This document shows positions 21,948-41,209 of a DNA stretch of 64,000 bases, piece after piece. The notes beneath the pieces are model-generated. The model did no database searches, was not told the origin of the DNA, and worked only from the letters and a program-made list of their open reading frames with translations. Positions within the stretch are counted from its first letter, which is position 1. Each line of letters begins with the position of its first letter. Source of the stretch: Vineibacter terrae (lineage in GTDB: Bacteria; Pseudomonadota; Alphaproteobacteria; Reyranellales; Reyranellaceae); the NCBI RefSeq assembly GCF_008039615.1, contig NZ_VDUZ01000026.1, positions 1-64,000 on the forward strand. The letters are read 5' to 3'. The translations under genes and the position numbers were made by a program.

Positions 21948-21958
21948 GGGCGCCCACG

Positions 21959-23101
21959 ATGCGGTTCGTGTTCAAGACGTCCTACGCGCAGGACATCCAG
22001 CTCTTCCGCGACCGCATGGACGCCTTCTGGTACGTCCTGCTGGCGGCCGCGGTGGCGCTGCTGCCGGTGGTGATGTCCGAGTACTATGTCGGCGAGACGA
22101 CCTGGGTCTTCATCTACGCCATCTGCGGCGTCTCGCTGATGGTGCTGGTGGGCTACACCGGGCTGATCTCGCTGGGACATGCAGCCTTCCTGGGCATCGG
22201 CGCCTATGCCCATGCCTTCTTCATCAAGCACGGCGTGCCCTGGGTCGCGGCCGTGGCGCTGGCGGTGGTGATCACCACGGCCTGCGGCATCATCGTCGGC
22301 CTGCCGGCGCTGCGCATGTCGGGCATCTACCTCGCCATCGCGACGCTCGCCTTCGCGACCATCATCCAGGAAGTCTTCAGCCGCTGGGAGTCGGTGACGC
22401 ACGGCTTCGCCGGCATGCCGGTCGAGAAGCCGGTGATCTTCGGCGTCTCGTTCGCCCACGACACCGCGTTCTACTATCTCTGCCTGTTCTTCCTGGTGGT
22501 GAGCCTGTGGCTGACGCGCAACCTGCTGCGCGCGCCCACCGGGCGGGCCTGGGTGGCGATCCGCGACAGCGAGATCGCGGCCCAGTCGATGGGCGTCAAC
22601 ATCGCCATCTACAAGTCCATGGCCTTCGCCTACTCGGCGGCGCTGATGGGCCTGGCCGGCGCTCTGTTCGCGCACAAGATCGCCTACCTGGCGCCGGACA
22701 TCTTCACCATACTGCTGTCGATCCAGCTGCTGCTGCTGGTGATCGTGGGCGGCCTGGGCTCGCTGCATGGCGCCGTCTTCGGCGCCATCTTCGTGGCCCT
22801 GCTGCCGCCGGTGATCGCCATCCTGCGCGACTCGATCCCGGCCACCCTGTCGAGCGTCGCCGGCGCCACCGGCCTGTCGCTGTTCGGCGCCATCGGCGAG
22901 GGCGTCGGCGCCTTCCTGCGCAAGCCCGGTGTCGAGGCCGGCATCTTCGGGCTGATCCTGGTGCTGGTGATCCTGCTGGAGCCGCTGGGGATGTATGGCC
23001 GCTGGATGAAGATCCGGGTCTATTTCTCGACCTTCCCGATGTATAAGCGCGCCACCTTCAAGCGCCAGAAGACCTACATGCGATCGGAGCGGCTGCGGTG
23101 A
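21959..23101 (+). CDS. livM: Branched-chain amino acid-type ABC permease LivM
   Basis: A 380-aa membrane permease, partner of LivH. ICGVSLMVLVGYTGLISLGHAAFLGIGAYA and LPALRMSGIYLAIATLAFATIIQEV are hallmark LivM sequences; AVFGAIFVALLPPV lies near the coupling region. The C-terminus has a basic cytoplasmic tail (YKRATFKRQKTYMRSERLR), somewhat longer than usual. ATG at 21959 comes 11 nt after the livH stop, and the stop overlaps the livG start by GTGA, so all are translationally linked. Confidence 0.92.
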   Translation: MRFVFKTSYAQDIQLFRDRMDAFWYVLLAAAVALLPVVMSEYYVGETTWVFIYAICGVSLMVLVGYTGLISLGHAAFLGIGAYAHAFFIKHGVPWVAAVALAVVITTACGIIVGLPALRMSGIYLAIATLAFATIIQEVFSRWESVTHGFAGMPVEKPVIFGVSFAHDTAFYYLCLFFLVVSLWLTRNLLRAPTGRAWVAIRDSEIAAQSMGVNIAIYKSMAFAYSAALMGLAGALFAHKIAYLAPDIFTILLSIQLLLLVIVGGLGSLHGAVFGAIFVALLPPVIAILRDSIPATLSSVAGATGLSLFGAIGEGVGAFLRKPGVEAGIFGLILVLVILLEPLGMYGRWMKIRVYFSTFPMYKRATFKRQKTYMRSERLR

Positions 23102-23856
23102 GCTTCTTCAAGGTCGACCAGCTCTCCATCAACTTCGGCGGCATCAAGGCCGTCGACGGGGTCAGCTTCGACGTCGACAAAGGCTCGGTCTTCACCATCA
23201 TCGGCCCCAACGGCGCCGGCAAGACGACGATCTTCAACCTCGTCAGCCGCATCTACGAGCCCAGCGGCGGCCGCCTCGTGTTCGAGGGCAACGACATCAC
23301 CCACGTGCCGCCGCACCGCGTCGCCAAGCTCGGCATTGCGCGCACGTTCCAGAACATCGAGCTGTTCGAGCACGCCAGCCTGCTGCAGAACCTGCTGCTG
23401 GCACGCCATGCCCACAAGCAGTCGAGCTTCTTCTCCGAGCTCCTCTTCCTGCCCTCGGTGCGGCGCATGGAGGTCGAGCACCGCGAGGCCGTGGAGAAGG
23501 TGATCGATTTCCTCGATCTGCAGCAATACCGCGAGAGCCTGATCGTCAACCTGCCGTACGGCGTGCGCAAGGTGACCGAGCTGGCGCGCGCGCTCTGCAC
23601 CAACCCCAAGCTGCTGCTGCTGGACGAGCCCTCCTCCGGCCTCAACGTCGAGGAGACCGAGGACATGGCGTTCTGGATCCAGGACATCAAGAACCTGCTG
23701 GGCATCACGGTGCTCATGGTCGAGCACGACATGAAGCTGGTCTCGGCGGTGTCCGACCGGGTGCTGGCGCTGAACTACGGCCGGCCGCTGGCCCAGGGCT
23801 CGCCACAGGAGGTGCAGTCCCACCCCGAGGTGGTGCGCGCCTATCTCGGAGGCTAG
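23098..23856 (+). CDS. livG: ABC transporter ATP-binding protein LivG
   Basis: A 252-aa ATPase beginning with GTG overlapping the livM stop. Walker A GPNGAGKTT, Q-loop region GIARTFQNIELF, the LivG-type signature LPYGVRKVTELARAL instead of LSGGQ, Walker B LLLLDEPSSGLN and switch His in VEHDMKLV are all present. It should energise the LivHM permease together with LivF. Complete and of normal length. Confidence 0.94.
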   Translation: MSFFKVDQLSINFGGIKAVDGVSFDVDKGSVFTIIGPNGAGKTTIFNLVSRIYEPSGGRLVFEGNDITHVPPHRVAKLGIARTFQNIELFEHASLLQNLLLARHAHKQSSFFSELLFLPSVRRMEVEHREAVEKVIDFLDLQQYRESLIVNLPYGVRKVTELARALCTNPKLLLLDEPSSGLNVEETEDMAFWIQDIKNLLGITVLMVEHDMKLVSAVSDRVLALNYGRPLAQGSPQEVQSHPEVVRAYLGG

Positions 23857-23863: not shown

Positions 23864-24637
23864 ATGGCCGAGCCGATCCTGAAGGTCAGCAACATCGAGA
23901 CCTACTACGGGCCGATCATGGCCATCCGCGGGGTCTCCTTCGACGTGCCGCAAGGCGGCATCGTCACCATCCTGGGCGCCAACGGCGCCGGCAAGACGAC
24001 AGTGCTGAAGACCATCTGCGGCGTGATGGACCCGCAGAAGGGCAGCGTCGCCTTCGAAGGCCGCGAGATCCAGCGCACGGACCCCGACAAGGTCATGCGG
24101 CTGGGCATCAGCCACGTGCCGGAGGGCCGCGAGGTTTTCCCGTTCCTGACCGTGCGCGAGAACCTGCGCATGGGCGCCTACACGCGCCGGGACCCCGACG
24201 GCGTCGCCCAGGACATGAGCACCGTCTTCGGCTACTTCCCGGTGCTGAAGGAGCGCGCCGACCAGCGGGCGGGCTCGCTGTCGGGCGGCGAGCAGCAGAT
24301 GCTGGCCATCAGCCGGGCGCTGATGGCGCGGCCCAAGGTCATGCTGCTGGACGAGCCGTCGCTGGGCCTGTCGCCCAAGCTGGTGCTGGAGATCTTCGAC
24401 ATCGTCACGCGCATCAACCGCGAGCGCGGCGTGACCATCCTGCTGGTCGAGCAGAACGCCAACATGGCGCTGAAGGTGGCCGACTACGGCTACGTGCTGG
24501 AGGTCGGCCGCATCGTGATGGCCGACACCTGTGCCCGGCTGATGGAGAAGGACGACATCAAGGAGTTCTATCTCGGCATCAAGGACCAGGGCGCGCGCGG
24601 CCAGCGGCGTTGGAAGAAGCGCAAGACATGGCGCTAG
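23864..24637 (+). CDS. livF: ABC transporter ATP-binding protein LivF
   Basis: A 257-aa ATPase. Walker A GANGAGKTT, HVPEGREVFPFLTVRENLRMGAY, signature LSGGEQQM, Walker B VMLLDEPSLGLSP and VEQNANMAL are the LivF pattern. A short basic C-terminal tail (RRWKKRKTWR) follows the usual end. It starts 7 nt after livG and ends the permease operon. The acyl-CoA synthetase follows after about 320 bp. Confidence 0.94.
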   Translation: MAEPILKVSNIETYYGPIMAIRGVSFDVPQGGIVTILGANGAGKTTVLKTICGVMDPQKGSVAFEGREIQRTDPDKVMRLGISHVPEGREVFPFLTVRENLRMGAYTRRDPDGVAQDMSTVFGYFPVLKERADQRAGSLSGGEQQMLAISRALMARPKVMLLDEPSLGLSPKLVLEIFDIVTRINRERGVTILLVEQNANMALKVADYGYVLEVGRIVMADTCARLMEKDDIKEFYLGIKDQGARGQRRWKKRKTWR

Positions 24638-24958
24638 CCGCCCCCAGCGGATCGAACCGCACCTTTCGGGCCCCTCTCCACGCCAAGACGGGAAGAAGGT
24701 GGCACGAACACGGTGTCTGCGCTGGCGTCGAAACACCGGCGATGAGGGGCTTCGCGAGGTGAAGGCGCTGCTCCGTGGCGCTCCGGCCACCTGCGGTTTG
24801 CGCGTGAGCATGGTCGGCAGGCCAGAAAGCCCCTCATATGGTTTTCGGGAACCTTCCCCCCGCCGTCACGGGAGGAAGGGTGGTATCGGAGCCTGCCCCG
24901 GTGTACCTAGGTGCGTCAGGCAAGAGAAGAAGCAACAGATATAGGGAGGCCGCAAGCC
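24638..24958. other. Intergenic region with degenerate family A palindrome
   Basis: About 320 bp without a gene. ATGAGGGGCTT (24742-24752) and AAGCCCCTCAT (24827-24837) are a perfect 11-bp inverted pair. CCCCTCTCC...GGGAAGAAGG and CCTTCCCC...GGGAGGAAGGG flank it, so this is an eroded family A pair. No clear promoter is seen before the synthetase. Confidence 0.55.
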
Positions 24959-26809
24959 ATGGATGGCGAAGTCAGTGCGGGTTCGCTCGAGCGCATCGAG
25001 GTCGAGGGCTGCGACACCATCCCCAAGCTGTTCTGGCACCAGGTGAAGGCGCGCGACAGCCGGGTCGCCTTCCGCGAGAAGGACCTCGGCATCTGGCGCG
25101 CGACGAGCTGGCGCGACTACGGGCAGCGTGCGCGCTGGACCGGCATCGGCCTGGCCAAGCTCGGGCTGGAGCCCGGCGAGGTCGTGTCGATCCTGGCCGA
25201 GACGATCCCCGAATGGCTCTATGCCGATATGGGCACCATGGGTGCCGGCGGTGTCGCCAACGGCATCTATCCCACCGATGCCGCCAAGCAGGTCGAGTAC
25301 ATCATCAACGACAGCCGCTCGCGCTTCCTGTTCGTCGAGAACGAGGAGCAGCTCGACAAGTGGCTGGAGGTGCGGGCGCGCTGCCCGCTGGTGCGCAAGG
25401 CCTTCATCTTCGACATGGAAGGCCTGTCGACGTTCAGCGATCCGGACGTGATGCCGTTCGACGAGCTGCTGGCGCTGGGCCGCGAGCACGATGCAGCCCG
25501 GCCCGGCCTGTGGGAGGAGCGCATCGCCGGCTCCCGGCCCGAGACGCTGGCGCTGCTGGTCTACACGTCCGGCACCACGGGCCCGCCCAAGGGCGCCATG
25601 CTGTCTCACCGCAACGTGATCTTCCAGCTGCGCAACGCCGATGCGTTCTTCCCGGTGCGCGACAACGAGGAGCAGCTGGCCTTCCTGCCGCTGTGCCACG
25701 TCGCGGAGCGCACCTTCACGGCGTTCCTGCCGCTGCGCACCGGCGCCATCGCGAACTTCGCCGAAAGCCCCGACACGGTGCCGGAGAACCTGCGCGAGGT
25801 GTCGCCGACCACGTTCTTCGCCGTGCCGCGCATCTGGGAGCGCTTCTACTCCGGCATCACCATCCGCATGCGGGAAGCGACCTGGATCGGGCGCAAGGCC
25901 TATGCCTGGGCTGTCGGCGTCGGCCTGAAGGTGGCGGAAGCGGAGCTCGACGGGCGCCAGCCCTCCTCCGGCCAGAAGCTGATGTTCCGGCTCGCCGACT
26001 TCCTGGTGCTGGACAACATCAAGCGCAGCATGGGCATGCACCGCGTGGCCTTCGCCGTCACCGGCGCGGCGCCGATCGCGCCCGACCTCATCAAATGGTA
26101 CCGGGCGCTGGGCATCGACTTGCGCGAGGGCTACGGTCAGACCGAGAATTGCGGCCTGGCCACCGGCATGCCGGCGCAGATCAAGCCGGGCACGGTGGGC
26201 ACCACGGCGCCCAACACCGAGGTCAGGATCTCACCCGAAGGCGAGATCCTGCTGCGCGGGCCGCATGTGTTCATGGGCTACCTCAACCAGCCGGAGAAGA
26301 CGGCCGAGACCCTGCGCGACGGCTGGCTGCATACCGGCGACGTCGGCTTCCTCGACAACGAGGGCTACCTGAAGATCACCGACCGGATGAAGGACATCAT
26401 CATCACGGCCGGTGGCAAGAACATCACGCCCTCGGAGATCGAGAACCAGCTCAAGTTCTCGCCCTATATCTCCGACGCCGTCGTCGTGGGCGACCGCCGC
26501 AAGTTCCTGACCTGCCTGGTCATGATCGACTACGACAACGTGGCCAAGTACGCCCAGGACAACAACGTGCCGTTCACGGATTTCACCTCGCTGTGCCGCA
26601 CCCGGTCGGTGCAGGACCTGATCTGGGCCGAGATCGAGAGGGTCAACGCCAACTTCGCGCGCGTCGAGACGATCAAGAAGTTCCGCCTGATCGAGCAGCA
26701 GCTCACAGCCGAGGACGACGAGGTCACGCCGACCATGAAGCTCAAGCGCAAGTTCGTGAACGAGAAGTACAAGACGATGATCGACGGCATGTACGCCGAG
26801 GCGGCGTAG
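24959..26809 (+). CDS. Long-chain acyl-CoA synthetase (AMP-forming)
   Basis: A 616-aa ANL-superfamily ligase making acyl-CoA from a carboxylic acid, ATP and CoA. The P-loop YTSGTTGPPKGAMLSHRN starts near residue 202; LREGYGQTENCG, GWLHTGDVGFLDNEGYLKITDR and GGKNITPSEIENQL mark the adenylation core and hinge. The N-terminal region (LFWHQVKARDSRVAFREKDLGIW) matches the FadD15/long-chain group. ATG at 24959 follows AGGGAGG. Placed between livHMGF and six binding-protein genes, it probably activates the acid that the transporter imports. Confidence 0.92.
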   Translation: MDGEVSAGSLERIEVEGCDTIPKLFWHQVKARDSRVAFREKDLGIWRATSWRDYGQRARWTGIGLAKLGLEPGEVVSILAETIPEWLYADMGTMGAGGVANGIYPTDAAKQVEYIINDSRSRFLFVENEEQLDKWLEVRARCPLVRKAFIFDMEGLSTFSDPDVMPFDELLALGREHDAARPGLWEERIAGSRPETLALLVYTSGTTGPPKGAMLSHRNVIFQLRNADAFFPVRDNEEQLAFLPLCHVAERTFTAFLPLRTGAIANFAESPDTVPENLREVSPTTFFAVPRIWERFYSGITIRMREATWIGRKAYAWAVGVGLKVAEAELDGRQPSSGQKLMFRLADFLVLDNIKRSMGMHRVAFAVTGAAPIAPDLIKWYRALGIDLREGYGQTENCGLATGMPAQIKPGTVGTTAPNTEVRISPEGEILLRGPHVFMGYLNQPEKTAETLRDGWLHTGDVGFLDNEGYLKITDRMKDIIITAGGKNITPSEIENQLKFSPYISDAVVVGDRRKFLTCLVMIDYDNVAKYAQDNNVPFTDFTSLCRTRSVQDLIWAEIERVNANFARVETIKKFRLIEQQLTAEDDEVTPTMKLKRKFVNEKYKTMIDGMYAEAA

Positions 26810-26829: not shown

Positions 26830-26908
26830 GTCATCCCGAGCGCAGCGAGGGATCTCCCGAAGACGAAGACTGGGCTCGCGGGAGATCCCTCGCTGCGCTC
26901 GGGATGAC
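26830..26908. repeat. Palindromic repeat, family B (perfect 28-bp arms)
   Basis: Arms 26830-26857 and 26881-26908 are perfect inverted repeats, identical in sequence to the arms at 3563-3646, with a 23-nt loop of unrelated sequence. It separates the synthetase gene from the first binding-protein gene. Confidence 0.9.
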
Positions 26909-26990: not shown

Positions 26991-28154
26991 ATGGGTCAGA
27001 AGGTAGTATGGGTGGTGGCTGCGGCGCTGGCGGCCGTGGCAACGGGTGCGTCGGCGCAGACGCGTGGCGTGAGCAAGACCGAGATCGTGCTGGGCACGCA
27101 TAGCGACCTGTCGGGCGTCGCCGCCACGTACGGCGTGTCGTCGTCCAACGCAGCCAAGATGCGTTTCGACGAGATCAACGAGGCGGGCGGCATCAACGGC
27201 CGCAAGATCCGCTTCCTCATCGAGGACAACGGCTACCAGGTGCCCAAGGCCGTGCAGGCCTGCAACAAGCTGATCAACCGCGACAAGGTCTTCGCCTTCG
27301 TGGCGGCAGTCGGCACTCCGATGAACAACGCCTGCTTCAAGGACCAGTTCGCCGCCGAGGTGCCCAACCTCTTCCCGCTCACCGCGGCGCGCTCGATGTA
27401 CGAGCCGTTCCATCGCCTGAAGTTCTACGGCGCGGCCTCCTACGTCGACCAGATCCGCTCCGGCATGAACTACTTCGTGAAGGAGAAGGGCAAGAAGGCG
27501 GTCTGCGTGATGTACCAGGATACCGACTACGGCAAGGAGATCCTGGAAGGCGCCGAGCTGCAGGCCAAGAAGCTCGGCATCAAGCTGGTCGAGACCACGG
27601 CCCACAAGCCCACCGACCAGGACTTCACCGCCCCCATCACCAAGCTGCGCCAGGCCGGCTGCGACCTGGTCCTGATGGGCACCATCGTGCGCGACTCGAT
27701 CATCCCCTACGTGACGGCGCGCAAGATGGGCTGGACCGACGTCGTGTTCGTGGGCTCGGCGGCGGCCTATGATTCCGTGGTCGGCGCCGCGCAGGGCATG
27801 GACGGCTTCTACGCCATGGGCCTGACCGAGATGGCCTACGCCGACAGCGAGGTCCCGGCAGTGCGCGAGTTCGTGGAACGCTACAAGAAGAAGTTCAACA
27901 TCGATCCCAACATCGGCGCCGTCTACGGCTACGTCGCCGCCGACCTCACCGTCACCGGGCTCAAGAATGCCGGCGCCGACCTGACGCTGGACAGCTTCAT
28001 CAAGGGCATGGAAGCGATCAAGGGCTACAAGGACATCTTCAACGGCCCCGAGGTCAGCTTCACCCCGCAGAGCCGCCAGGGCGCCAACTCGTCGTTCCTG
28101 GCCGAGGTCAAGGGCGGCCGCTGGACTCGCGCCACCCAGCCGCTCGGCTTCTGA
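26991..28154 (+). CDS. Periplasmic binding protein, Liv type, paralogue 1 of 6
   Basis: A 387-aa Peripla_BP_6-type receptor. Signal peptide MGQKVVWVVAAALAAVATGASA, mature start near QTRGVSKTEI. Conserved DLSGVAATYG, AGGINGRKIRFLIEDNGYQ, NKLINRDKVFAFV and AVCVMYQDTDYGKE blocks follow. Four cysteines (VQACN, NNACF, AVCVM, AGCDL) recur in all paralogues and probably form disulfides. The start at 26991 was chosen by GGAAGGAAAC; ATG at 26967 is also in frame. It most resembles paralogue 4. It would deliver ligand to LivHMGF. Confidence 0.9.
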   Translation: MGQKVVWVVAAALAAVATGASAQTRGVSKTEIVLGTHSDLSGVAATYGVSSSNAAKMRFDEINEAGGINGRKIRFLIEDNGYQVPKAVQACNKLINRDKVFAFVAAVGTPMNNACFKDQFAAEVPNLFPLTAARSMYEPFHRLKFYGAASYVDQIRSGMNYFVKEKGKKAVCVMYQDTDYGKEILEGAELQAKKLGIKLVETTAHKPTDQDFTAPITKLRQAGCDLVLMGTIVRDSIIPYVTARKMGWTDVVFVGSAAAYDSVVGAAQGMDGFYAMGLTEMAYADSEVPAVREFVERYKKKFNIDPNIGAVYGYVAADLTVTGLKNAGADLTLDSFIKGMEAIKGYKDIFNGPEVSFTPQSRQGANSSFLAEVKGGRWTRATQPLGF

Positions 28155-28177
28155 CCGCCTCACGCACGGCATCCGGC

Positions 28178-28214
28178 ACGGCCCGAGCGGGCAACCGCCC
28201 GGGCCGTCGCTTTT
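28178..28214 (+). terminator. Rho-independent terminator after paralogue 1
   Basis: ACGGCCCGAGCGG-GCAA-CCGCCCGGGCCGT followed by TTTT: a 13-bp stem with one mismatch and a GCAA tetraloop. It is nearly the same sequence as the terminator after paralogue 2. Confidence 0.85.
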
Positions 28215-28267
28215 GTCCAGCGAGTGCATTATCGTCCCGGGTTCAACGTTGGGGAGGAAAGAGAAAC

Positions 28268-29431
28268 ATGCATTGCAGACTGTCCATGATCGCCGCGGCT
28301 ACCGTGATGGTCGTCGCGACGAGCGCCGCGGCGCAGACGCGTGGCGTGACCAAGACCGAGGTGACGCTCGGCACGCACACCGACCTGTCGGGCGTGGCGG
28401 CGACCTACGGCGTGTCGTCGTCCAACGCGGTCAAGATGCGCTTCGACGAGATCAACGAGGCTGGTGGCATCCACGGCCGCAAGCTGCGCTTCCTCATCGA
28501 GGACCAGGGCTACCAGGTGCCCAAGGCCGTGCAGGCCTGCAACAAGCTCATCAACCGCGACAAGGTATTCGCCTTCGTGGGTGCCCTGGGCACGCCCATG
28601 AACAACGCCTGCTTCAAGGACCAGCTCGCCGCCGAGGTGCCCAACCTCTTCCCGCTCACCGCCGCGCGCTCGATGTTCGAGCCCTTTCATCGCCTGAAGT
28701 TCTATAACGCGGCGACCTACGTCGATCAGCTTCGTTCGGCCGTCAACTATTTCGTGAAGGAGAAGGGCAAGAAGGCGGTCTGCGTCATGTACCAGGACAC
28801 CGACGCCGGCAAGGAGTTCCTGGAGGGCGCCGAGCTGCAAGCCAAGAAGCTGGGCATCAAGCTGGTCGAGACGACGTCCCACAAGCCCACCGACCAGGAT
28901 TTCACCGCCCCCATCACCAAGCTGCGCCAGGCCGGCTGCGATCTCATCGTCATGGGCACCATCGTGCGCGACTCGATCGTGCCCTACATCACCGCCCGCA
29001 AGACGGGCTGGACCGATGTCGATTTCGTCGGCTCGGCGGCGGCCTATGATTCGGTCGTCGGCGCCGCCCAGGGCATGGATGGCTTCCACGCCATGGGCCT
29101 GACCGAGATGCCCTATCCCGACAGCACCGTCCCCGCAGTCCGCGACTTCGTCGAGCGCTACAAGAAGAAGTTCAATGTCGATCCCAACATCGGCGCGGTC
29201 TACGGCTACGTCGGTGCCGACCTCACCGTGGCCGGGCTGAAGAATGCCGGCGCCGACCTGACGCTCGACAGCTTCGTCAAGGGCATGGAGGCGATCAAGG
29301 GATACAAGGACATCTTCAACGGCCCCGAGGTGAGTTTCGGACCGCAGATCCGGCAGGGCGCGAACTCCTCCTTCCTCGCCGTCGTGAAGGGCGGCCGCTG
29401 GACCCGCGTGACCGAACCGCTCGGTTTCTGA
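28268..29431 (+). CDS. Periplasmic binding protein, Liv type, paralogue 2 of 6
   Basis: 387 aa, with signal peptide MHCRLSMIAAATVMVVATSAAA. Distinguishing residues against paralogue 1: GGIHGRKLRFLIEDQGYQ, FAFVGALGTP, DTDAGKEFLEGAE and a GFHAMGLTEMPYPDS segment. GGGGAGGAAAGAGAAAC gives a strong ribosome site. It is flanked on both sides by near-identical terminators, so it may be a separate transcription unit. Ligand unknown; differences fall in loops that may line the binding cleft. Confidence 0.9.
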   Translation: MHCRLSMIAAATVMVVATSAAAQTRGVTKTEVTLGTHTDLSGVAATYGVSSSNAVKMRFDEINEAGGIHGRKLRFLIEDQGYQVPKAVQACNKLINRDKVFAFVGALGTPMNNACFKDQLAAEVPNLFPLTAARSMFEPFHRLKFYNAATYVDQLRSAVNYFVKEKGKKAVCVMYQDTDAGKEFLEGAELQAKKLGIKLVETTSHKPTDQDFTAPITKLRQAGCDLIVMGTIVRDSIVPYITARKTGWTDVDFVGSAAAYDSVVGAAQGMDGFHAMGLTEMPYPDSTVPAVRDFVERYKKKFNVDPNIGAVYGYVGADLTVAGLKNAGADLTLDSFVKGMEAIKGYKDIFNGPEVSFGPQIRQGANSSFLAVVKGGRWTRVTEPLGF

Positions 29432-29456
29432 TCCCGCCGCACGCACGGCATCCGGC

Positions 29457-29495
29457 ACGGCCCGGGCGGGCAACCGCCCGGGCCGTCGCCTTTTT
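29457..29495 (+). terminator. Rho-independent terminator after paralogue 2
   Basis: ACGGCCCGGGCGG (29457-29469), loop GCAA, CCGCCCGGGCCGT (29474-29486), then TTTTT at 29491-29495. The 13-bp stem is perfect. The preceding CGCACGGCATCCGGC is also shared with the terminator at 28178. Confidence 0.9.
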
Positions 29496-29543
29496 GCGCC
29501 CGGCGGACTACCCTCCCCGCTTCAGCCTGGGAGGACGCGAGAC

Positions 29544-30707
29544 ATGCATCGCAGAATCGCAATGATCGCCGTCGCTGCAGCGATGGCCATGGCGGCCGAC
29601 GCCTCGGCGCAGACGCGCGGCGTGACCAAGGCCGAGATCGTGCTGGGCATGCACACCGACCTGTCGGGCGTCGCCGCCACCTACGGCGTGACGTCGTCCA
29701 ATGCCGCCCGGATGCGCTTCGACGAGATCAACGAGGCGGACGGCATCAACGGCCGCAAGGTCCGCCTCATCGTCGAGGACAACGGCTACCAGGTGCCCAA
29801 GGCCGTGCAGGCCTGCAACAAGCTGATCAATCGCGACAAGGTCTTCGCGTTCCTGGGCGCCCTGGGCACGCCGATGAACAACGCCTGCTTCAAGGACCAG
29901 TTCGCCGCCGAGGTGCCCAACCTCTTCCCACTTTCGGCCGCGCGTTCGATGTACGAGCCCTTCAACCGCCTGAAGTTCTACAGCGCCGCGACCTACACCG
30001 ACCAGATCCGGTCGGCCGTGAACTACTTCGTGACGGAAAGAGGCAAGAAGGCCGTCTGCGTGATGTACCAGGACACCGACTTCGGCAAGGAGATCATCGA
30101 CGGCGCCGAGCTGCAGGCGAAGAAGCTCAACATCAAGCTGGTCGAGGCCGCAGCCCACAAGCCCACCGACCAGGACTTCACCGCTCCGATCACCAGGCTG
30201 CGCCAGGCCGGCTGCGACCTGATCCTGATGGGCACCATCGTGCGCGACTCGATCGTGCCCTATGTCACGGCCCGCAAGCTGGGATGGACCGATGTCGACT
30301 TCGTGGGCTCCTCCGCGGCCTATGACGGCGTGGTCGGCGCCGCCCAGGGCATGGACGGCTTCTACGCCATGGGCATCACCGAGATGCCCTATCCCGACAG
30401 CCCGGTGCCGGCCATCCGCGCGTTCGCGGAGCGCTACAAGCAGCGGTTCAACGTCGATCCCAATATCGGCGCCGTCTATGGCTACATCATCGCCGACCTG
30501 GCGGCGACGGGACTGAAGAACGCTGGCCCCGACCTCACGCTCGACAGCTTCATCGGCGGCCTGGAAGCCATCAAGGGCTACAAGGATATCTTCAACAGTC
30601 CCGAGATCAGCTTCGGTCCACAGATCCGCAAGGGCGCCGACTCATCGTTCCTGGCCGAGGTCAAGGGTGGCCGCTGGACCCGTGTCACTCAGCCGCTCGG
30701 ATTCTGA
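29544..30707 (+). CDS. Periplasmic binding protein, Liv type, paralogue 3 of 6
   Basis: 387 aa, signal peptide MHRRIAMIAVAAAMAMAADASA. Its own features are NEADGINGRKVRLIVEDNGY, a Thr for Lys change in NYFVTERGKKAV, RYKQRFNVDP and FIGGLEAIKGYKDIFNSPE. These set it apart from paralogues 1, 2, 4 and 5, which share KGMEAIKGYKDIF. The start follows GGGAGGACGCGAGAC. Unlike the first two, no terminator hairpin follows it. Confidence 0.9.
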   Translation: MHRRIAMIAVAAAMAMAADASAQTRGVTKAEIVLGMHTDLSGVAATYGVTSSNAARMRFDEINEADGINGRKVRLIVEDNGYQVPKAVQACNKLINRDKVFAFLGALGTPMNNACFKDQFAAEVPNLFPLSAARSMYEPFNRLKFYSAATYTDQIRSAVNYFVTERGKKAVCVMYQDTDFGKEIIDGAELQAKKLNIKLVEAAAHKPTDQDFTAPITRLRQAGCDLILMGTIVRDSIVPYVTARKLGWTDVDFVGSSAAYDGVVGAAQGMDGFYAMGITEMPYPDSPVPAIRAFAERYKQRFNVDPNIGAVYGYIIADLAATGLKNAGPDLTLDSFIGGLEAIKGYKDIFNSPEISFGPQIRKGADSSFLAEVKGGRWTRVTQPLGF

Positions 30708-30871
30708 TCCCGAACGACGCTGCGGTCATTTTCGCTGCGCGAACCGCCGAGCACCACCCTGGATGGGACACGAGACGTTTGGTCGCAGGCTGCGCTATCA
30801 TGCCCGCATCAGCCCTCGATAGGGGTTGGCAAGACCCACGAAGGGCTGTGTCAAACGGGAGGATCAGAGGA

Positions 30872-32038
30872 ATGAAACCGAGGCTAGTGATGGTCGCGGC
30901 GGCCGGACTGATGGCGGTCGTGGCAACGGGTGCGTCGGCGCAGACGCGTGGTGTGACCAAGACCGAAATCCTGCTGGGCTCGCACAGCGACCTGTCGGGC
31001 GTCGCCGCCACCTACGGCGTGTCGTCGACCAATGCCGCCAAGATGCGCTTCGACGAGATCAACGACACGGGCGGCATCTTCGACCGCAAGATCCGCTTCA
31101 TCGTCGAGGACAACGGCTACCAGGTGCCCAAGGCCGTGCAGGCCTGCAACAAGCTGATCAACCGCGACAAGGTCTTCGCCTTCGTGGCGGCGCTGGGCAC
31201 TCCGATGAACAACGCCTGCTTCAAGGACCAGTTCGCCGCCGAGGTGCCCAACCTCTTCCCGCTCACTGCCGCGCGCTCGATGTTCGAGCCCTTCAACCGG
31301 CTGAAGTTCTACAACGCGGCGACCTATGTCGACCAGATCCGCTCCGGCATAAACCACTTCGTGAAGGAGAAGGGCAAGAAGGCGGTCTGCGTGATGTACC
31401 AGGACACCGATTTCGGCAAGGAGATCCTGGAAGGCGCCGAGCTGCAGGCCAAGAAGCTCGGCATCAAGCTGGTCGAGACCACGGCCCACAAGCCCACCGA
31501 CCAGGACTTCACCGCCCCCATCACCAAGCTGCGCCAGGCCGGCTGCGACCTGATCATGATGGGCACCATCGTGCGTGACACGATCGTGCCTTACGTGACG
31601 GCACGCAAGATGGGCTGGACCGACGTCGTGTTCGTGGGCTCGGCGGCGGCCTATGATTCCGTGGTCGGCGCCGCGCAGGGCATGGACGGCTTCTACGCCA
31701 TGGGCCTGACCGAGATGCCCTATCCCGACAGCGATGTCGCTTCAGTGCGCGAGTTCGTGGAGCGCTACAAGAAGAAGTTCAACATCGATCCCAACATCGG
31801 CGCCGTCTACGGCTATGTCGGCGCCGACCTCACGGTGACAGGGCTCAAGAATGCCGGCGCCGATCTGACGCTGGACAGCTTCATCAAGGGCATGGAAGCG
31901 ATCAAGGGCTACAAGGACATCTTCCACGGTCCCGAGATCAACTTCGGCCCGCAGACCCGCCAGGGCGCCAACTCATCGTTCCTGGCCGAGGTCAAGGGCG
32001 GCCGCTGGACCCGCGTCACCCAGCCGCTCGGCTTCTGA
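30872..32038 (+). CDS. Periplasmic binding protein, Liv type, paralogue 4 of 6
   Basis: 388 aa, signal peptide MKPRLVMVAAAGLMAVVATGASA. The segment NDTGGIFDRKIRFIVED differs from the usual GGINGRK, and a Thr replaces Ser in IVRDTIVPY. Long stretches of its DNA match paralogue 1, suggesting these two are the closest pair. The ATG at 30872 follows GGGAGGATCAGAGGA. About 160 bp separate it from paralogue 3, enough for its own promoter, though none is clear. Confidence 0.9.
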   Translation: MKPRLVMVAAAGLMAVVATGASAQTRGVTKTEILLGSHSDLSGVAATYGVSSTNAAKMRFDEINDTGGIFDRKIRFIVEDNGYQVPKAVQACNKLINRDKVFAFVAALGTPMNNACFKDQFAAEVPNLFPLTAARSMFEPFNRLKFYNAATYVDQIRSGINHFVKEKGKKAVCVMYQDTDFGKEILEGAELQAKKLGIKLVETTAHKPTDQDFTAPITKLRQAGCDLIMMGTIVRDTIVPYVTARKMGWTDVVFVGSAAAYDSVVGAAQGMDGFYAMGLTEMPYPDSDVASVREFVERYKKKFNIDPNIGAVYGYVGADLTVTGLKNAGADLTLDSFIKGMEAIKGYKDIFHGPEINFGPQTRQGANSSFLAEVKGGRWTRVTQPLGF

Positions 32039-32046
32039 TCATCTTC

Positions 32047-32093
32047 CATTGCGCTGCGCAATGGGTCCCTTCCTCTCCCGCGCCGCGGGAGAG
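32047..32093. repeat. Half element of family A
   Basis: CATTGCGC-T-GCGCAATG and CTCTCCCGCGCCGCGGGAGAG hairpins with the linking GGGTCCCTTC. It is one half of the pairs seen elsewhere, lying between paralogues 4 and 5. Confidence 0.7.
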
Positions 32094-32119
32094 GAGTTTC
32101 GATGGAGGAGACGATCGCA

Positions 32120-33283
32120 ATGGGCTTGAAATGGGCGATGATGGCAGCTTCGGTCGTGGCGGCCGTGGCAACGGGCGCCGCCGCGCAGACACGTGGCGTG
32201 ACCAAGACCGAGATCCTGCTGGGCATGCATACCGACCTGTCGGGAGTCGGGGCGACCTACGGCGTCTCGTCGTCCAATGCCGTGAAGATGCGCTTCGATG
32301 AGGCCAACGATGCAGGTGGCATCAACGGCCGCAAGATCCGCCTCATCGTCGAGGACCAGGGCTACCAGGTGCCCAAGGCCGTGCAGGCCTGCAACAAGCT
32401 CATCAACCGCGACAAGGTGTTCGCCTTCGTGCAGGCCGCCGGCACGCCGATGAACAACGCCTGCTTCAAGGATCAGCTCGCCGCCGAGGTGCCCAACCTC
32501 TTCCCGCTCACCGCCTCGCGCATGATGTTCGAGCCGTTCCATCGCCTGAAGTTCTATTTCGCGGCGTCCTACTTCGACCAGATCCGGTCGGCCGTGAACT
32601 ACTTCGTGAAGGAGAAGGGCAAGAAGGCCGTCTGCGTGATGTACCAGGATACCGACTACGGCAAGGAGATCCTGGACGGCGCCGAGACCCAGGCCAAGAA
32701 GCTTGGCATCAAGCTGGTCGAGGCCACGGCCCATAAGCCCACCGACCAGGACTTCACCGCCCCCATCACCAAGCTGCGCCAGGCCGGCTGCGACCTAGTC
32801 CTGATGGGCACCATCGTGCGCGACTCGATCATCCCCTACGTGACGGCACGCAAGATGGGCTGGACCGATGTCGATTTCGTGGGCTCGGCGGCAACCTACG
32901 ACTCGGTGGTCGGCGCCGCCCAGGGCATGGACGGCTTCTACGCCATGGGCCTGACCGAGATGCCCTACGCCGACAGCCCCGTCCCCGCCATCCGCGAGTT
33001 CGTGGAACGCTACAAGAAGAAGTTCAACATTGATCCCAACATCGGCGCGGTCTACGGCCATGTCGCCGCCGACCTCACGGTGCTCGGCCTGAAGAACGCC
33101 GGCCCCGACCTGACGCTGGACAGCTTCATCAAGGGCATGGAAGCGATCAAAGGCTACAAGGACATCTTCAACGGCGCCGAGCAGAATTTCGGCCCGCAGA
33201 TCCGTCAGGGCGCCAACTCGTCGTTCCTGGCCGAGGTCAAGGGCGGCCGCTGGACCCGCGTCACGCAGCCGCTCGGATTCTGA
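32120..33283 (+). CDS. Periplasmic binding protein, Liv type, paralogue 5 of 6
   Basis: 387 aa, signal peptide MGLKWAMMAASVVAAVATGAAA. Its specific features are DEANDAGGINGRKIRLIVED, FVQAAGTPMNNA, LTASRMMFEPFHRLKFYFAASYFDQ and GAEQNFGPQ. The FYFAASYFDQ change lies in a position that varies among copies and could alter the ligand pocket. ATG at 32120 follows GGAGGAGACGATCGCA; an in-frame ATG at 32102 is less well spaced. Confidence 0.9.
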   Translation: MGLKWAMMAASVVAAVATGAAAQTRGVTKTEILLGMHTDLSGVGATYGVSSSNAVKMRFDEANDAGGINGRKIRLIVEDQGYQVPKAVQACNKLINRDKVFAFVQAAGTPMNNACFKDQLAAEVPNLFPLTASRMMFEPFHRLKFYFAASYFDQIRSAVNYFVKEKGKKAVCVMYQDTDYGKEILDGAETQAKKLGIKLVEATAHKPTDQDFTAPITKLRQAGCDLVLMGTIVRDSIIPYVTARKMGWTDVDFVGSAATYDSVVGAAQGMDGFYAMGLTEMPYADSPVPAIREFVERYKKKFNIDPNIGAVYGHVAADLTVLGLKNAGPDLTLDSFIKGMEAIKGYKDIFNGAEQNFGPQIRQGANSSFLAEVKGGRWTRVTQPLGF

Positions 33284-33386
33284 TCGCTGCCTTCTCGATC
33301 CTCGAAAGATTCCTCTCTTCGTCCCGAGCCTGTCGAAGGATGCTCGGGATGACGGCCCGGCAGAAGAAATCCAAACGGAGGAAACG

Positions 33387-34550
33387 ATGTCCCACCGGCT
33401 GACGATGCTGGCGGCCTGCGCGCTTGTGGCCATGGCCACAGGGGCCTCGGCGCAGACCCGCGGCGTGACCAAGACCGAGATTGTCCTGGGCTCGCACACC
33501 GACCTGTCCGGGGTCGGCTCCGTGTCGGGCTCGGCGTCGGTCAACGGCATGAACCTGCGGTTCGGCGCCATCAACGACCAGGGCGGCATCAACGGCCGCA
33601 AGGTGCGCCTCATCGTCGAGGACCACGGCTACCAGGTGCCCAAGGCGGTGCAGGCCTGCAACAAGCTGATCAACCGCGACAAGGTGTTCGCCATCGTGGC
33701 GGCCGGCGGCACGCCGATGAACAACGCCTGCTTCAAGGACCAGCTCGCTGCCGGCGTACCGAACCTGTTCCCGTTCTCGGCCGCGCGCTCGATGTACGAG
33801 CCGCTCGACCGCCTGAAGTTCGCCAACAGCGCCTCGTACACCGACCAGATGCGGGCGGCCGTGAGCTACTTCGTGAAGGAAAAGGGCAAGAAGGCTGTCT
33901 GCGTGATGTACCAGGACACCGATTTCGGCAAGGAGATCCTGGATGGCGGCACGCTGCAGGCCGCGAAGCTCGGTATCAGCCTGAAGGAGATCACGACCCA
34001 CAAGCCGACCGACCAGGACTTCTCGGCGCCTCTGCTGAAGCTGCGCCAGGCGGGCTGCGATCTCGTCCTGCTGGGCAGCATCACCCGTGACTCGATCGTG
34101 CCCTACACCACCGCACGCAAGATGGGCTGGACCGACGTCGACTTCGTGGCCTCCAGCGCCGCCTACGAGGTCGTGGCCGCCACCGCCCAGGGCATGGACG
34201 GGTTCTATGCCATGAGCGTCACCAACATCCCCTATGCCGACAGCGCCTCGCCCGAGATCCGCGCCTTCGCCGAGACCTACAAGAAGAAGTTCAATGTCGA
34301 CCCCAACATGGGCGCCGTCTACGGCTATGTCGCCGCCGACCTCACCGCCACCGGGCTCAAGAATGCCGGCGCCGACCTGACCTCGGACAGCTTCATCAAG
34401 GGCATGGAGGCGATCAAGGGCTACAAGGACATCTTCAATGGACCGGCGATCAGCTTCGGCCCCGACATCCGCCAGGGTGCGAACGCCTCCTTCCTGGCGG
34501 TCGTGAAGGACGGCCGCTGGTCGCGCATCACCCCAGCGCTCACCTACTGA
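33387..34550 (+). CDS. Periplasmic binding protein, Liv type, paralogue 6 of 6 (diverged)
   Basis: 387 aa, signal peptide ending ATGASA. It keeps QTRGVTKTEIVLGSHTDLSGV, the four cysteines and the KGMEAIKGYKDIF block, but diverges at GSVSGSASVNGMNLRFGAIND, LKEITTHKPTDQDFSAPLLKLRQ, LGSITRDSIVPYTTARKMGW and SSAAYEVVAATAQG. It ends RITPALTY instead of TQPLGF. It is thus the oldest or most altered member of the array. Upstream lies a GTCCCGAG...CTCGGGATGAC palindrome. Confidence 0.9.
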   Translation: MSHRLTMLAACALVAMATGASAQTRGVTKTEIVLGSHTDLSGVGSVSGSASVNGMNLRFGAINDQGGINGRKVRLIVEDHGYQVPKAVQACNKLINRDKVFAIVAAGGTPMNNACFKDQLAAGVPNLFPFSAARSMYEPLDRLKFANSASYTDQMRAAVSYFVKEKGKKAVCVMYQDTDFGKEILDGGTLQAAKLGISLKEITTHKPTDQDFSAPLLKLRQAGCDLVLLGSITRDSIVPYTTARKMGWTDVDFVASSAAYEVVAATAQGMDGFYAMSVTNIPYADSASPEIRAFAETYKKKFNVDPNMGAVYGYVAADLTATGLKNAGADLTSDSFIKGMEAIKGYKDIFNGPAISFGPDIRQGANASFLAVVKDGRWSRITPALTY

Positions 34551-34658
34551 GACAGGGCCTCGCCGCAGGGCGGCGATGCAGCGCCTGTTGCCCGTGCGCG
34601 GGATGACAGCCCGGTCATGGCTTGGGTAAGCTCCGCTTGGCAGCAGCGGAGGAGCAGG

Positions 34659-35429
34659 ATGGCTGGGCGAGTCGCGGGCAAGGTGGCGGTGATCACGGGT
34701 GGCGCATCGGGCCTGGGCCTGGCCGCGGCGAAGCTGATGGCGGCCGAGGGCGCCCGGGTGGTGATCACCGACATCCAGCAGGACAAGGGCCAGCAGGCGG
34801 CGCGCGAGATCGGCGGCGACGCCCTCTTTCTCGAGCACAATGTCGCCAGCGAATCGAGCTGGACCGTGGCCATCGACCGCACCCTGGAACACTTCGGCAA
34901 GATCAACGTGCTGGTGAACTCCGCCGGCATCGCCGGACCCGACGGTTCCATCGAGCAGGTGTCGCTGCGCCAGTTCCAGCGCATGATGGCGGTCAACGCC
35001 GAAGGCACCTTCCTGGGCTGCCAGAACGCCGTGCGCGTCATGAAAGGCAACGGCGAGCTGAACTCCATCGTCAACATATCGTCGGTCGCCGGCCTGGTGA
35101 GCGGCTGGCAGATGGCGTGCTACAGCCCGTCGAAGGCCGCCGTGCGCCTGTTGACCAAGAGCGTGGCCTTGCACTGCGCGCGCGCCGGCTATCCGATCCG
35201 CTGCAATTCCGTGCATCCCGCCTTCATCGACACGCCCATGGTGCAAGGCGGCATCGATGCCGATGCGGATCCGGACAAGGCACGCAAGCGGCTGACGCGC
35301 ATGGTCCCGATGGGCCGCATCGGCGAACCCAACGACATCGGCTACATGATCCTCTACCTCGCCTCCGACGAATCGAAGTTCACCACCGGCGCCGAGATGG
35401 TGGTCGACGGCGGTTGCACGGCGATCTGA
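34659..35429 (+). CDS. SDR family oxidoreductase (first of three in a row)
   Basis: 256 aa. VAVITGGASGLGLA cofactor loop, Asp in VVITDIQQD (NAD preference), NSAGIAG, NISSVAGLVSG and CYSPSKAAVRLLTKSVALHCA active site, and PMGRIGEPNDIGYMILYLASD C-terminus. It resembles 3-alpha/7-alpha-hydroxysteroid or cyclohexanol-type dehydrogenases, though such names are weak. GGAGGAGCAGG precedes the ATG at 34659. It is the first of three same-strand SDR genes separated by 7 bp or overlapping, directly after the receptor array. Confidence 0.9.
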   Translation: MAGRVAGKVAVITGGASGLGLAAAKLMAAEGARVVITDIQQDKGQQAAREIGGDALFLEHNVASESSWTVAIDRTLEHFGKINVLVNSAGIAGPDGSIEQVSLRQFQRMMAVNAEGTFLGCQNAVRVMKGNGELNSIVNISSVAGLVSGWQMACYSPSKAAVRLLTKSVALHCARAGYPIRCNSVHPAFIDTPMVQGGIDADADPDKARKRLTRMVPMGRIGEPNDIGYMILYLASDESKFTTGAEMVVDGGCTAI

Positions 35430-35436: not shown

Positions 35437-36252
35437 ATGACATCTTCCGACGAGTTGGCCGGCCGCGTGGCGATCGTCACCGGCGGCGCCTCCGGCATCG
35501 GCGCCGCCTGCGCCCGTCTTCTGGCCGCCTGCGGCGCCGACGTGGTGATCGGCGACGTGCAGGACGGGCCGGGCGCGGCCGTCGCCCGCGACATCGGCGC
35601 GCGCGCCTCCTTCCGCCACCTCGATGTCGCCAGCGAGGGCGCCTGGCTGGCCCTGATCGACGACACGCTGGCCCGTCTCGGCCGGCTGGACATCCTGGTC
35701 AACAATGCCGGCATCGCCGGGTCGGGCTCGATCGAGGACACCACGGTCGAGGCCTGGGAGCGCACCCACGCGGTCAATCTCGACGGCGTGTTCCTGGGCT
35801 GCAAGCACGGGATCGCCGCCATGAAGCGCACCGGGCGCGGCAAGCCGGCGGCCAAGGGCGCCATCGTCAATGTTTCCTCGATCGCAGGCATGGTCGGCGG
35901 CGCCGGTCCCTGCGCCTACACCGCCAGCAAGGGCGCGGTGCGGCTGCTGACCAAGAGCGTGGCCCAGCATTGCGCCGAGAAGCGCTACGACATCCGCTGC
36001 AATTCGGTGCATCCCGGCGGCATCGACACCCCCATCTTCAATCCGCTGTGGCAGGCGGTCGGCCGCGAAGCCGGCAAGGCGCTGGTCGGCGCGCTGCATC
36101 CGGTCGGCCATATGGGCGCGCCGGACGACATCGCCGAAGCAGTGCTCTATCTCGCCTCCGACCGCTCCCGCTTCATGACCGGCGCCGAATTGATCGTCGA
36201 CGGCGGCATCACGTCCGGCTTCCAGAGGAGAACGCCCCTTGCCGCGCCTTGA
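35437..36252 (+). CDS. SDR family oxidoreductase (second of three)
   Basis: 271 aa. VAIVTGGASGIGAACARLL, VVIGDVQDG, NNAGIAGSG, NVSSIAGMVGG with YTASKGAVRLLTKSVAQHCA, and FMTGAELIVDGGITS. It is clearly related to its two neighbours (shared RLLTKSVA and IRCNSVHPGGIDTP), so the trio arose by duplication. It begins 7 nt after the previous gene and its 3' end overlaps the next by 14 bp. The substrate is an alcohol or ketone that cannot be named. Confidence 0.9.
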   Translation: MTSSDELAGRVAIVTGGASGIGAACARLLAACGADVVIGDVQDGPGAAVARDIGARASFRHLDVASEGAWLALIDDTLARLGRLDILVNNAGIAGSGSIEDTTVEAWERTHAVNLDGVFLGCKHGIAAMKRTGRGKPAAKGAIVNVSSIAGMVGGAGPCAYTASKGAVRLLTKSVAQHCAEKRYDIRCNSVHPGGIDTPIFNPLWQAVGREAGKALVGALHPVGHMGAPDDIAEAVLYLASDRSRFMTGAELIVDGGITSGFQRRTPLAAP

Positions 36253-37003
36253 CGCCAAGACGCTGATCATCACCGGCGGCGCCTCCGGCATCGGCGCCGC
36301 CACCTGCCGGCTGGCCGCGGCGGCGGGCGCCACCGTGGTCGTGGCCGACCTGGCAACGCAGGCCGACCATGCCCGTCAGGTGGTTGCCGACAGCGGCCGG
36401 CATGCCGTCTTCATGCCCCTGGACGTCACCGTGGAAGCCGATTGGGAACAGCTGGTCGACGACACCGTGGCCCGGTTCGGCCGGCTCGACGGCCTGCTCA
36501 ACGGCGCCGGCATCGGCATGGCCCAGGACATCGAGTCCTGCTCGCTGGACGACTTCCATCGTGTCTATCGCGTCAACGGCCTGGGCGTCTTCCTTGGCTG
36601 CAAGCATGCGGTGCGGGTCATGCGCGCCAGCGGCGGCGGGTCGATCGTGAACATCTCCTCCGTGCTCGGACTGCGGGGCACGGCCGGCACGCCCGCCTAC
36701 GCCGCCAGCAAGGGCGCCGTGCGGCTGCTCACCAAGAACGTGGCCGTGCACTGCGCCCGGCATGGCTACAATATCCGGTGCAACTCGGTGCACCCCGGCT
36801 ATATCGAGACCCCGATGATCGCGTCGCGGCTGACCCGCTCGGTCGACAACATGACGGGGCGCCAGCATCTGGAAAACCTGCATCCGATGGGGCGACTGGG
36901 CCAGCCGGAGGAGATCGCGCGGCTGGTCCTGTTCCTGCTGTCGGATGAATCGTCGTTCTCGACCGGCGCCGAGTTCGTGGCCGATGGCGGCCTCACGGCC
37001 TGA
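36239..37003 (+). CDS. SDR family oxidoreductase (third of three)
   Basis: 254 aa from a TTG at 36239 preceded by GAGGAGAACGCCCC. TLIITGGASGIGAATCRLA, VVVADLATQ, NGAGIGMAQD, NISSVLGLRG and YAASKGAVRLLTKNVAVHC give the SDR fold and active site; it ends FSTGAEFVADGGLTA. Overlap with the upstream gene implies coupled translation. Three different but related dehydrogenases in one unit suggest sequential or stereospecific oxidation of one compound class. It ends before a 923-bp gene-poor gap. Confidence 0.88.
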   Translation: MPRLDAKTLIITGGASGIGAATCRLAAAAGATVVVADLATQADHARQVVADSGRHAVFMPLDVTVEADWEQLVDDTVARFGRLDGLLNGAGIGMAQDIESCSLDDFHRVYRVNGLGVFLGCKHAVRVMRASGGGSIVNISSVLGLRGTAGTPAYAASKGAVRLLTKNVAVHCARHGYNIRCNSVHPGYIETPMIASRLTRSVDNMTGRQHLENLHPMGRLGQPEEIARLVLFLLSDESSFSTGAEFVADGGLTA

Positions 37004-38694: not shown

Positions 38695-38943
38695 GGATGC
38701 TGCTCCGTCTTGGATGGCGTTTCGCGCACCCTGGCCTGCACGCATACCCGGCGCAAGCCTGCCGGCCAGGACCGTTCGTCTGGCGGCTCGCCGCTCTGGG
38801 ATCGACGGCGTGTTCACGGTATCACGCGGTGGCACGAGCCTTGCGCGCGCTGCTTGCGCCGCAGCATTGACGGCTCGCCGACCACGGCTTAATTGCGGCC
38901 TACTGATATAATCAACGTCCGCCCTTCCGGAGGAGAACACCCG

Positions 38944-40575
38944 ATGCTCGGCCTGATGCAGGACCGCCCGCTTCTGATCTCGCAGCTCATCGACTTCGCC
39001 GCCGATTTCCACGGCGACACCGAGATCGTCTCGCGGACCGTCGAAGGGCCGATCCACCGCTACACCTACAGCGACGCCCACCGGCGCGCCAAGCAGGTGT
39101 CCGAGGCCCTGGCCGGGCTGGGCATCCGCCAGGGCGACCGGATCGGAACCCTGGCCTGGAACGGCTACCGGCATTTCGAGCTCTATTACGGCATCTCTGG
39201 CATGGGCGCGGTATGCCACACCATCAACCCGCGCCTGTTTCCCGAGCAGATCGCCTATATCGTCAACCACGCCGAGGACCAGCTCCTCTTCGTGGACATC
39301 AACATCCTGCCGCTGGTCGAGAGCCTGGCGCCGCAGCTCAAGACGGTGCGCCACATCGTGGCCATGACCGACCGCGCCCACCTGCCGGCCGACATCGATA
39401 TCCCCAACCTGCTGGTCTATGAGGAGCTGATCGGCGGCCAGCCCGGCACCTTCGAGTGGCCGGTCTTCGACGAGCGCACCGCCTCGTCGCTGTGCTACAC
39501 CTCGGGCACCACGGGCAACCCCAAGGGCGTGCTCTACCACCACCGCTCGACCATCCTGCACGCCTACGCCAGCGCCCTGCCGGACGGCATCGGCATCTCG
39601 GCGCGCGACTCGGTGCTGCCGGTGGTGCCGATGTTCCATGTCAACGCCTGGGGCCTGCCTTATTCCGGCTGCCTGTCGGGCGCCAAGCTGGTGTTCCCCG
39701 GCGCTGCCCTGGACGGCGCCAGCCTCTACGAGCTGTTCGAGGCCGAGGGCGTGACCATCACCGCCGGCGTGCCCACGGTCTGGCTGCTGCTGCTGCAGCA
39801 CCTGCAGGCCAAGAAGCTCAAGCTCTCGACCCTGCGCAAGTCGGTGATCGGCGGCTCGGCCTGCCCGCCGGCCATGATCGAGACATTCAAGCGCGACTAC
39901 GGCGTGGACGTCCTGCATGCCTGGGGCATGACCGAGATGAGCCCGCTGGGGACGGTCAACACGCCCAAGGCCAAGCACCGGAAGATGTCCGAGGCCGAGC
40001 AGAACGCGGTCAAGGCCAAGCAGGGTCGCGTGCTGTTCGGCGTCGAGATGAAGATCGTGGACGACAGCGGGAAGGCGCTGCCGCGCGACGGCAAGGCCTT
40101 CGGCGACCTGCTGGTGCGCGGCCCCTGGATCACGTCGGGCTATTTCAAGGACGAGGGCGGCAACCCGCTGCGCGACGGCGGCTGGTTCCCCACCGGCGAC
40201 GTGGCCACCCTCGATGCCGACGGCTACATGCAGATCACCGACCGGTCCAAGGACGTGATCAAGTCGGGCGGCGAATGGATCAGCTCGATCGACCTGGAGA
40301 ACGCCGCCATGGCGCACCCCGCCGTGGCCGAGGCGGCCGTGATCGGCATCCACCATCCCAAGTGGGACGAGCGCCCGCTGCTGATCATCCAAAAGAAGGC
40401 CGGGGCCGACGTCGACAAGGATGCCTTGCTGGGCTTCCTCAAGGACAAGGTCGCCAAGTGGTGGCTGCCCGATGACGTCACCTTCGTCGACTCGATCCCG
40501 CACACGGCCACCGGCAAGATCCTCAAGACGCGCCTGCGCGAGGACTTCAAGGACTACAAATTGCCGACGGCGTGA
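38944..40575 (+). CDS. AMP-forming acyl-CoA ligase (DmdB-like), copy 1
   Basis: A 543-aa ligase. The P-loop [18 protein letters not shown] begins near residue 185; [47 protein letters not shown] and [10 protein letters not shown] (catalytic Lys) are present. The family covers methylmercaptopropionate and medium-chain fatty acyl-CoA ligases. ATG at 38944 follows GGAGGAGAACACCCG. It shares length, the N-terminus [13 protein letters not shown] and most of its sequence with the gene at 41251; differences such as [11 protein letters not shown] against [10 protein letters not shown] suggest altered acid specificity. Confidence 0.92.
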
Positions 40576-41087: not shown

Positions 41088-41209
41088 GTCATCCCGACCA
41101 GGGCCCGAAGGGCCGCGTGGAGGGACCTTGCTTCAACAACAACGTCCTAGATTGTGCAAACAAGGTCCCTCGACTGCACCGCGCTCCGCGCGGCTCCGCT
41201 CGGGACGAC
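41088..41209. repeat. Family C repeat pair, right side of GIY-YIG bracket
   Basis: GTCATCCCGACC...GAGGGACCTT (41088-41130) and AAGGTCCCTCGACTGC...CGCTCGGGACGAC (41162-41209) are inverted to each other. A partial AAGGTCCCTCGACTGC copy also lies at 41015-41030. The last arm is the inverted partner of 40601-40648. Confidence 0.85.

Follow-up and report, generated by a model that had tools for sequence, protein, structure and literature searches.

Several receptors serving one permease is an established idea for ATP-binding cassette (ABC) importers (Thomas, 2010, as cited in PMC7170509). In Rhodopseudomonas palustris, RPA3724 and RPA3723, encoded beside the pim genes, differ in the fatty and dicarboxylic acids that they bind, and these agree with the ligand profile of the PimA ligase (PMC3223731). 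In Pseudomonas aeruginosa, DppA1-A4 share the DppBCDF permease, and the use of peptides through them is overlapping but different (PMC4206461). The present analysis concerns a 64,000-nucleotide stretch of the genome of Vineibacter terrae, a bacterium of soil type in the Reyranella group (contig NZ_VDUZ01000026.1, positions 1 to 64,000; the window), in which six genes for paralogous periplasmic receptors, designated S1-S6, lie at 26991-34550 on the + strand beside one livHMGF-type gene set. On balance, the locus is probably a receptor battery, in which related carboxylic acids would be delivered by the six receptors to one shared importer and coenzyme A (CoA) ligase. The closest analogue is RPA3723-RPA3725 beside pimFABCDE, where there are likewise several receptors, one ABC gene set, and an adjoining acyl-CoA ligase, PimA (PMC3223731). 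There are three receptors in that system, two of which bind different fatty and dicarboxylic acids, compared with six in the window, and the likeness to S1-S6 is one of gene arrangement rather than of compared receptor sequences.

The six receptor genes are consecutive, intact open reading frames, listed here with their relationships to the copies in the sister species (genome G002):

26991-28154, + strand: receptor S1, 387 amino acids (aa); counterpart of sister-species copy 1.
28268-29431, + strand: receptor S2, 387 aa; orthologue of sister-species copy 2 (tree support 100/98).
29544-30707, + strand: receptor S3, 387 aa; without a clear sister-species orthologue.
30872-32038, + strand: receptor S4, 388 aa; orthologue of sister-species copy 3 (tree support 100/99, and spacer).
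32120-33283, + strand: receptor S5, 387 aa; positional counterpart of sister-species copy 4, with a similar spacer.
33387-34550, + strand: receptor S6, 387 aa; the fastest-evolving copy (branch 0.42).

Additional in-frame starts are present upstream of S4 and S5. The leaders are of Sec type, ending in ASA or AAA ahead of QTRGV, and the mature proteins, 365 aa each, align without gaps, with 83-91 % amino-acid identity within S1-S5 and 73-75 % between S6 and the others. The original prediction of six consecutive same-strand genes encoding 387-388-aa receptors, with QTRGV, DLSGV, KGYKDIF, and four cysteines in common, is borne out in every part by the open reading frames and the alignment, these motifs and the mature cysteines (precursor C91, C115, C172, and C224) being invariant across the six. 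The Pfam domain Peripla_BP_6 covers residues 32-376 of S1 (E 2e-64) and is matched as strongly in S6 (E 7e-64), all six receptor places being above the cut-off in the genome scan. Nucleotide identity among the copies is 79-94 %; because their DNA thus differs by 6-21 %, these are real genes, and duplication or artefact of assembly is ruled out. Pairwise ratios of nonsynonymous to synonymous substitution (dN/dS) of 0.17-0.44 show that S1-S6 are under purifying selection.

Upstream of the array are the genes for a single importer and a synthetase:

21093-21947, + strand: livH-type permease (BPD_transp_2; Pfam E 1e-33).
21950-23101, + strand, start approximate: livM-type permease (BPD_transp_2; Pfam E 3e-37).
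23098-23856, + strand: livG-type ATPase (Pfam ABC_tran and BCA_ABC_TP_C; best NCBIfam match LivG, below cut-off).
23864-24637, + strand: livF-type ATPase (Pfam ABC_tran; best NCBIfam match LivF, below cut-off).
24911-26809, + strand: AMP-forming acyl-CoA synthetase of the long-chain type, 632 aa (Pfam AMP-binding, E 2e-67, and AMP-binding_C_3).

With two BPD_transp_2 permeases and two Liv-type ATPases, the Liv/HAAT-type core is complete within the locus. The best NCBIfam match of the synthetase is ligase_FadD11, at 367 bits, which is below cut-off. The nearest LivH elsewhere in the genome shares only 40 % identity with that of the locus, and the presence of one livHMGF set and one acyl-CoA synthetase upstream of six receptors is therefore supported as predicted. 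A separate permease for each receptor is ruled out, as no other genomic LivH exceeds this identity.

Comparison with related genomes shows that it is the number of receptors that varies in this arrangement. Within the genus, four genomes contain 6, 4, 2, and 1 receptors at the locus, the six being in this genome of 8.76 Mb. In the family, 36 of 75 genomes have the receptor, mostly as one copy and some as two, for a usual range of 0-2; small receptor rows are also found in more distant groups, for example three in family f93. In those related loci with enough flanking sequence, the receptor genes, whether one or several, come after livH, livM, livG, livF, and the synthetase, and are often followed by dehydrogenase genes.

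In a maximum-likelihood tree, the extra copies of the genus form one clade with those of G001 and G002, and therefore originated within it. S2 groups with copy 2 of the sister species and S4 with copy 3, whereas S1 is placed near copy 1 with weak support, and the gene order of S1, S2, and S4 is that of copies 1-3. The spacer ahead of S4 (30708-30871) resembles that ahead of sister-species copy 3, and the spacer ahead of S5 resembles that ahead of copy 4. Based on these colinear orthologues, the matching spacers, and a shared hairpin, at least four copies probably predate the species split, with S3 and S6 either gained in this species or lost in its sister. This retention of distinct copies through a species split counts in favour of receptor diversification. 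Concerted evolution as the dominant process is ruled out, because the closest partners of S2 and S4 are copies from the sister species and not their neighbours in the array. The receptor pairs in Reyranella proper and in locus L063 arose separately.

Receptor multiplication is not special to the window locus, since a second liv locus of the same genome also has six receptors. On contig C23 (19808-28160, - strand; L016 4808-13160), livG-livF-livH-livM is followed by six tandem receptors with twin-arginine leaders, which share 66-84 % identity among themselves and about 25 % with S1-S6; apart from the common fold family, the two arrays are unrelated in sequence. The counterpart arrays contain six receptors in G002, four in G001, and five in G018, and copies 5 and 6 can be matched to members in three species. 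In both six-receptor arrays, the most diverged copy is the one farthest from the permease. On the far side of the C23 array there are genes resembling those for acyl-CoA dehydrogenase and P450. Smaller arrays are present on contig C38 (L121 2500-7536), with four tandem receptors that are 75-82 % identical, a fifth receptor 3 kb off, and a liv set several kb off on the opposite strand, and on contig C31 (L122 293-4881), where three receptors, 84 % identical, are interleaved with livF and adjoin livM, livH, and a FACS-like synthetase. Receptor pairs are found on contigs C11, C3, and C1. Three liv loci of the genome, with 6, 3, and 2 receptors, adjoin a long-chain-type synthetase. In total, the genome has 87 Peripla_BP_6 genes versus 49 LivH-like matches; in the 14 other alphaproteobacteria sampled there are at most 23 receptors per genome, and among the matches listed none are in rows.

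Given the second, unrelated six-receptor array, the lineage seems prone to multiplying its receptors. It is quite possible, although this wider proposal is more tentative than the one made for the locus itself, that bacteria of the Reyranella group systematically multiply receptors behind single Liv-type cores, that two or more unrelated arrays of six originated in the one lineage and were retained there as orthologues in a fixed order, and that each core is a multiplexed importer in which the receptor row, not the permease, evolves with the acids available.

For the ligands of S1-S6, LivK provides a point of reference, the sequence used agreeing with 1usg over its whole length. In LivK, T102 and E226 hold the amino-acid head group. 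By alignment, E226 is replaced by A or S and T102 by A, so that neither residue is kept in any of the six receptors. Likewise, S1 and S6 fall below the NCBIfam cut-off for LivJ/LivK (53 and 42 bits, respectively, against 477). The best sequence match in the PDB is instead 4n03 (E 3e-42, about 24 % identical), annotated there as a fatty acid ABC transporter receptor, which is also the second-best fold match (template modelling score 0.87). The AlphaFold model has a mean predicted local distance difference test score of 95.8. Based on the loss of the LivK clamp, the match to 4n03, and the synthetase together with the acyl-CoA and beta-oxidation-type genes around the locus, acids that are activated by CoA ligation appear to be the likeliest ligands.

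Pocket-equivalent sites were transferred through LivK by alignment from a published list of LivJ contacts, itself derived from docking (PMC6983066). Conservation in 20 or more of the 21 single-copy orthologues is seen at 226 positions; 34 of these are altered in one or more of S1-S5, and among the 11 LivJ-contact-equivalent sites four are altered in S1-S5 (85, 109, 111, and 158), or six when S6 is counted. Mature position 158, equivalent to LivK Tyr150, is F in all 21 single-copy orthologues and is Y, A, F, F, Y, and F in S1-S6, respectively; in the sister species it is A in the S2 orthologue and F in the S4 orthologue. These changes suggest, without amounting to proof, that the copies differ in their pockets. 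The segments originally singled out as variable, GGINGRK and FYxAASYxDQ, do vary, although there are more variants than had been given, including DGINGRK (S3), FYxAATYxDQ (S2-S4), and FANSASYTDQ (S6). GGINGRK aligns with GGIKGDK of LivK, outside all of the listed contact residues, and its proposed relevance to the ligand is not upheld. Convergent change in independent duplicates was considered, with 15 shared positions against 5.3 expected (L063), but single-copy orthologues compared two by two likewise show an overlap 1.9-fold higher than expected; since rate variation explains part of this signal, it is not used as evidence.

In the receptor battery proposed here, the six paralogues would dock on the same LivHMGF-type permease, and each may bring different members of a group of related carboxylic acids. 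These would most likely be fatty, isoprenoid, or aryl-alkanoic acids and not amino acids, and the adjacent long-chain acyl-CoA synthetase would trap the imported acid as its CoA thioester for oxidation. The suggestion that the receptors split a set of related ligands is favoured by the altered pocket-equivalent sites that are fixed in 21 orthologues, above all position 158. Several observations weigh against it. Enrichment of variation at pocket sites is weak (Fisher p 0.065 for S1-S5 and 0.041 for S1-S6), and there is no enrichment when the pocket is defined by the cruder structural rule of strand ends (p 0.83). The Dpp paralogues of P. aeruginosa can overlap heavily in function, and DppA5 failed to complement in that screen (PMC4206461). 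In addition, because terminator-like hairpins follow S1 and S2, the receptors and the permease are probably not encoded on one simple transcript, and the receptors are probably not merely the tail of a long one.

A dosage effect, in which the copies bind the same ligand and are kept because extra receptor raises the uptake of a scarce substrate, is the alternative that survives best, yet is unlikely. The high identity of S1-S5 and the purifying selection on them would be expected of it, and tandem duplication is a common route to higher expression. Against this, the orthologues in two species keep distinct residues, as with A in S2 and F in S4 at position 158 and in their respective sister-species counterparts, S6 is diverged by about 26 %, and each copy has its own spacer.

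Somewhat less likely again is that the ligands are much alike and that each receptor is used under its own conditions, the diversity then being regulatory. The relevant features between the genes are:

28173-28217, + strand: terminator-like hairpin after S1 (fold -32 kcal/mol, with a T run); the same hairpin follows copy 1 of the sister species (L018).
29457-29495, + strand: terminator-like hairpin after S2 (13-pair stem, T tail; fold -40.6 kcal/mol).
30708-30871, + strand: spacer ahead of S4, similar to that ahead of sister-species copy 3.

Separate spacers of 81-164 nt with GGAGG-like sites upstream of the receptors, the two hairpins, and conservation of spacers with the sister species are all compatible with individual expression of the copies. 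Across the region as a whole, terminator-like sites are no more frequent than chance would give, and conservation is therefore the better argument for the S1 hairpin. However, a sigma-70 scan found no promoter-like site above chance in the array, other promoter types being outside the scan, and regulation alone would leave unexplained the changes at pocket-equivalent sites that are fixed in 21 orthologues. Within the 181 nt that separate the synthetase from S1 is a 36-nt inverted repeat, which is missing from the shorter gap of the sister species and whose arms recur at 3563-3646. Identical 26-nt inverted-repeat arms (GTCATCCCGAGCGCAGCGAGGGATCT) are present at 3563-3646 and 26830-26908, with a further single arm at 10405, making this a repeated palindromic element.

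Neutral duplication under relaxed selection, with unequal crossing-over yielding copies that drift and are then lost, is improbable: the copy number does differ between species and S6 evolves fast, but all six frames, leaders, and sets of cysteines are intact, dN/dS is well below 1, and the genome contains two independent six-receptor arrays that both have orthologous copies in sister species. That some of S1-S6 serve other permeases or act as sensors is very improbable. Other partners do exist in the genome, with its 49 LivH-like permeases, and several of its receptor genes have no permease nearby; yet even the closest of the other LivH proteins shares only 40 % identity, and S1-S6 are directly behind this permease set.

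With two unrelated loci of one genome each containing six receptors in an unbroken row, and close relatives at 1, 2, 4, 5, and 6 copies, there is an ordered natural series in which to test whether receptor duplication widens the substrate range, raises dosage, or splits regulation. The same series could show how many receptors one permease can serve.

Other features of the window include three tandem short-chain dehydrogenase genes 3′ of the receptors, which are also present in many relatives:

34617-35429, + strand: short-chain dehydrogenase (Pfam adh_short_C2).
35437-36252, + strand: short-chain dehydrogenase (Pfam adh_short_C2).
36239-37003, + strand: short-chain dehydrogenase (Pfam adh_short_C2).

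Beyond these are two neighbouring acyl-CoA ligase genes (38893-40575 and 41128-42882), both of which exceed the NCBIfam threshold for 3-(methylthio)propionyl-CoA ligase. Another recent duplication is seen at 15540-17492, where two short-chain dehydrogenase genes (305 aa) of great similarity lie in tandem, and on the - strand at 48412-55231 an RTX-repeat protein gene (51653-55231) lies beside an apparent ABC exporter and an HlyD-like adaptor gene.

Among known systems, E. coli LivJ/LivK with LivHMGF resembles the window in its permease and ATPase types, its receptor fold, and the use of more than one receptor per permease, but there are two receptors only, there is no acyl-CoA synthetase, and S1-S6 lack the clamp residues E226 and T102. 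The best solved sequence relative of S1-S6, 4n03, is from Thermomonospora curvata, a relationship that is nonetheless distant. DppA1-A5 with DppBCDF likewise combines paralogous receptors, five in this case and four of them encoded near the permease genes, with one permease (PMC4206461); it differs in being a peptide importer with receptors of another family, about 50-83 % identical, in an interrupted row with DppA5 elsewhere. CouPSTU and hbaEFGHI of R. palustris are importers of aromatic acids, with receptors of the same fold class and neighbouring CoA ligases (PMC3223731; PMC3610893), but each has one receptor compared with six here. Searches of the literature found neither tandem receptor arrays described for Reyranella nor clusters of six Liv receptors with a synthetase, although most subscription journals were outside the search and this absence proves little. 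Several receptors sharing one importer are thus already known, in cases with two to five receptors that are mostly scattered; the window is set apart by the number of its receptors, by their unbroken row, and by the recurrence of the arrangement elsewhere in this genome, at a locus unrelated to it.

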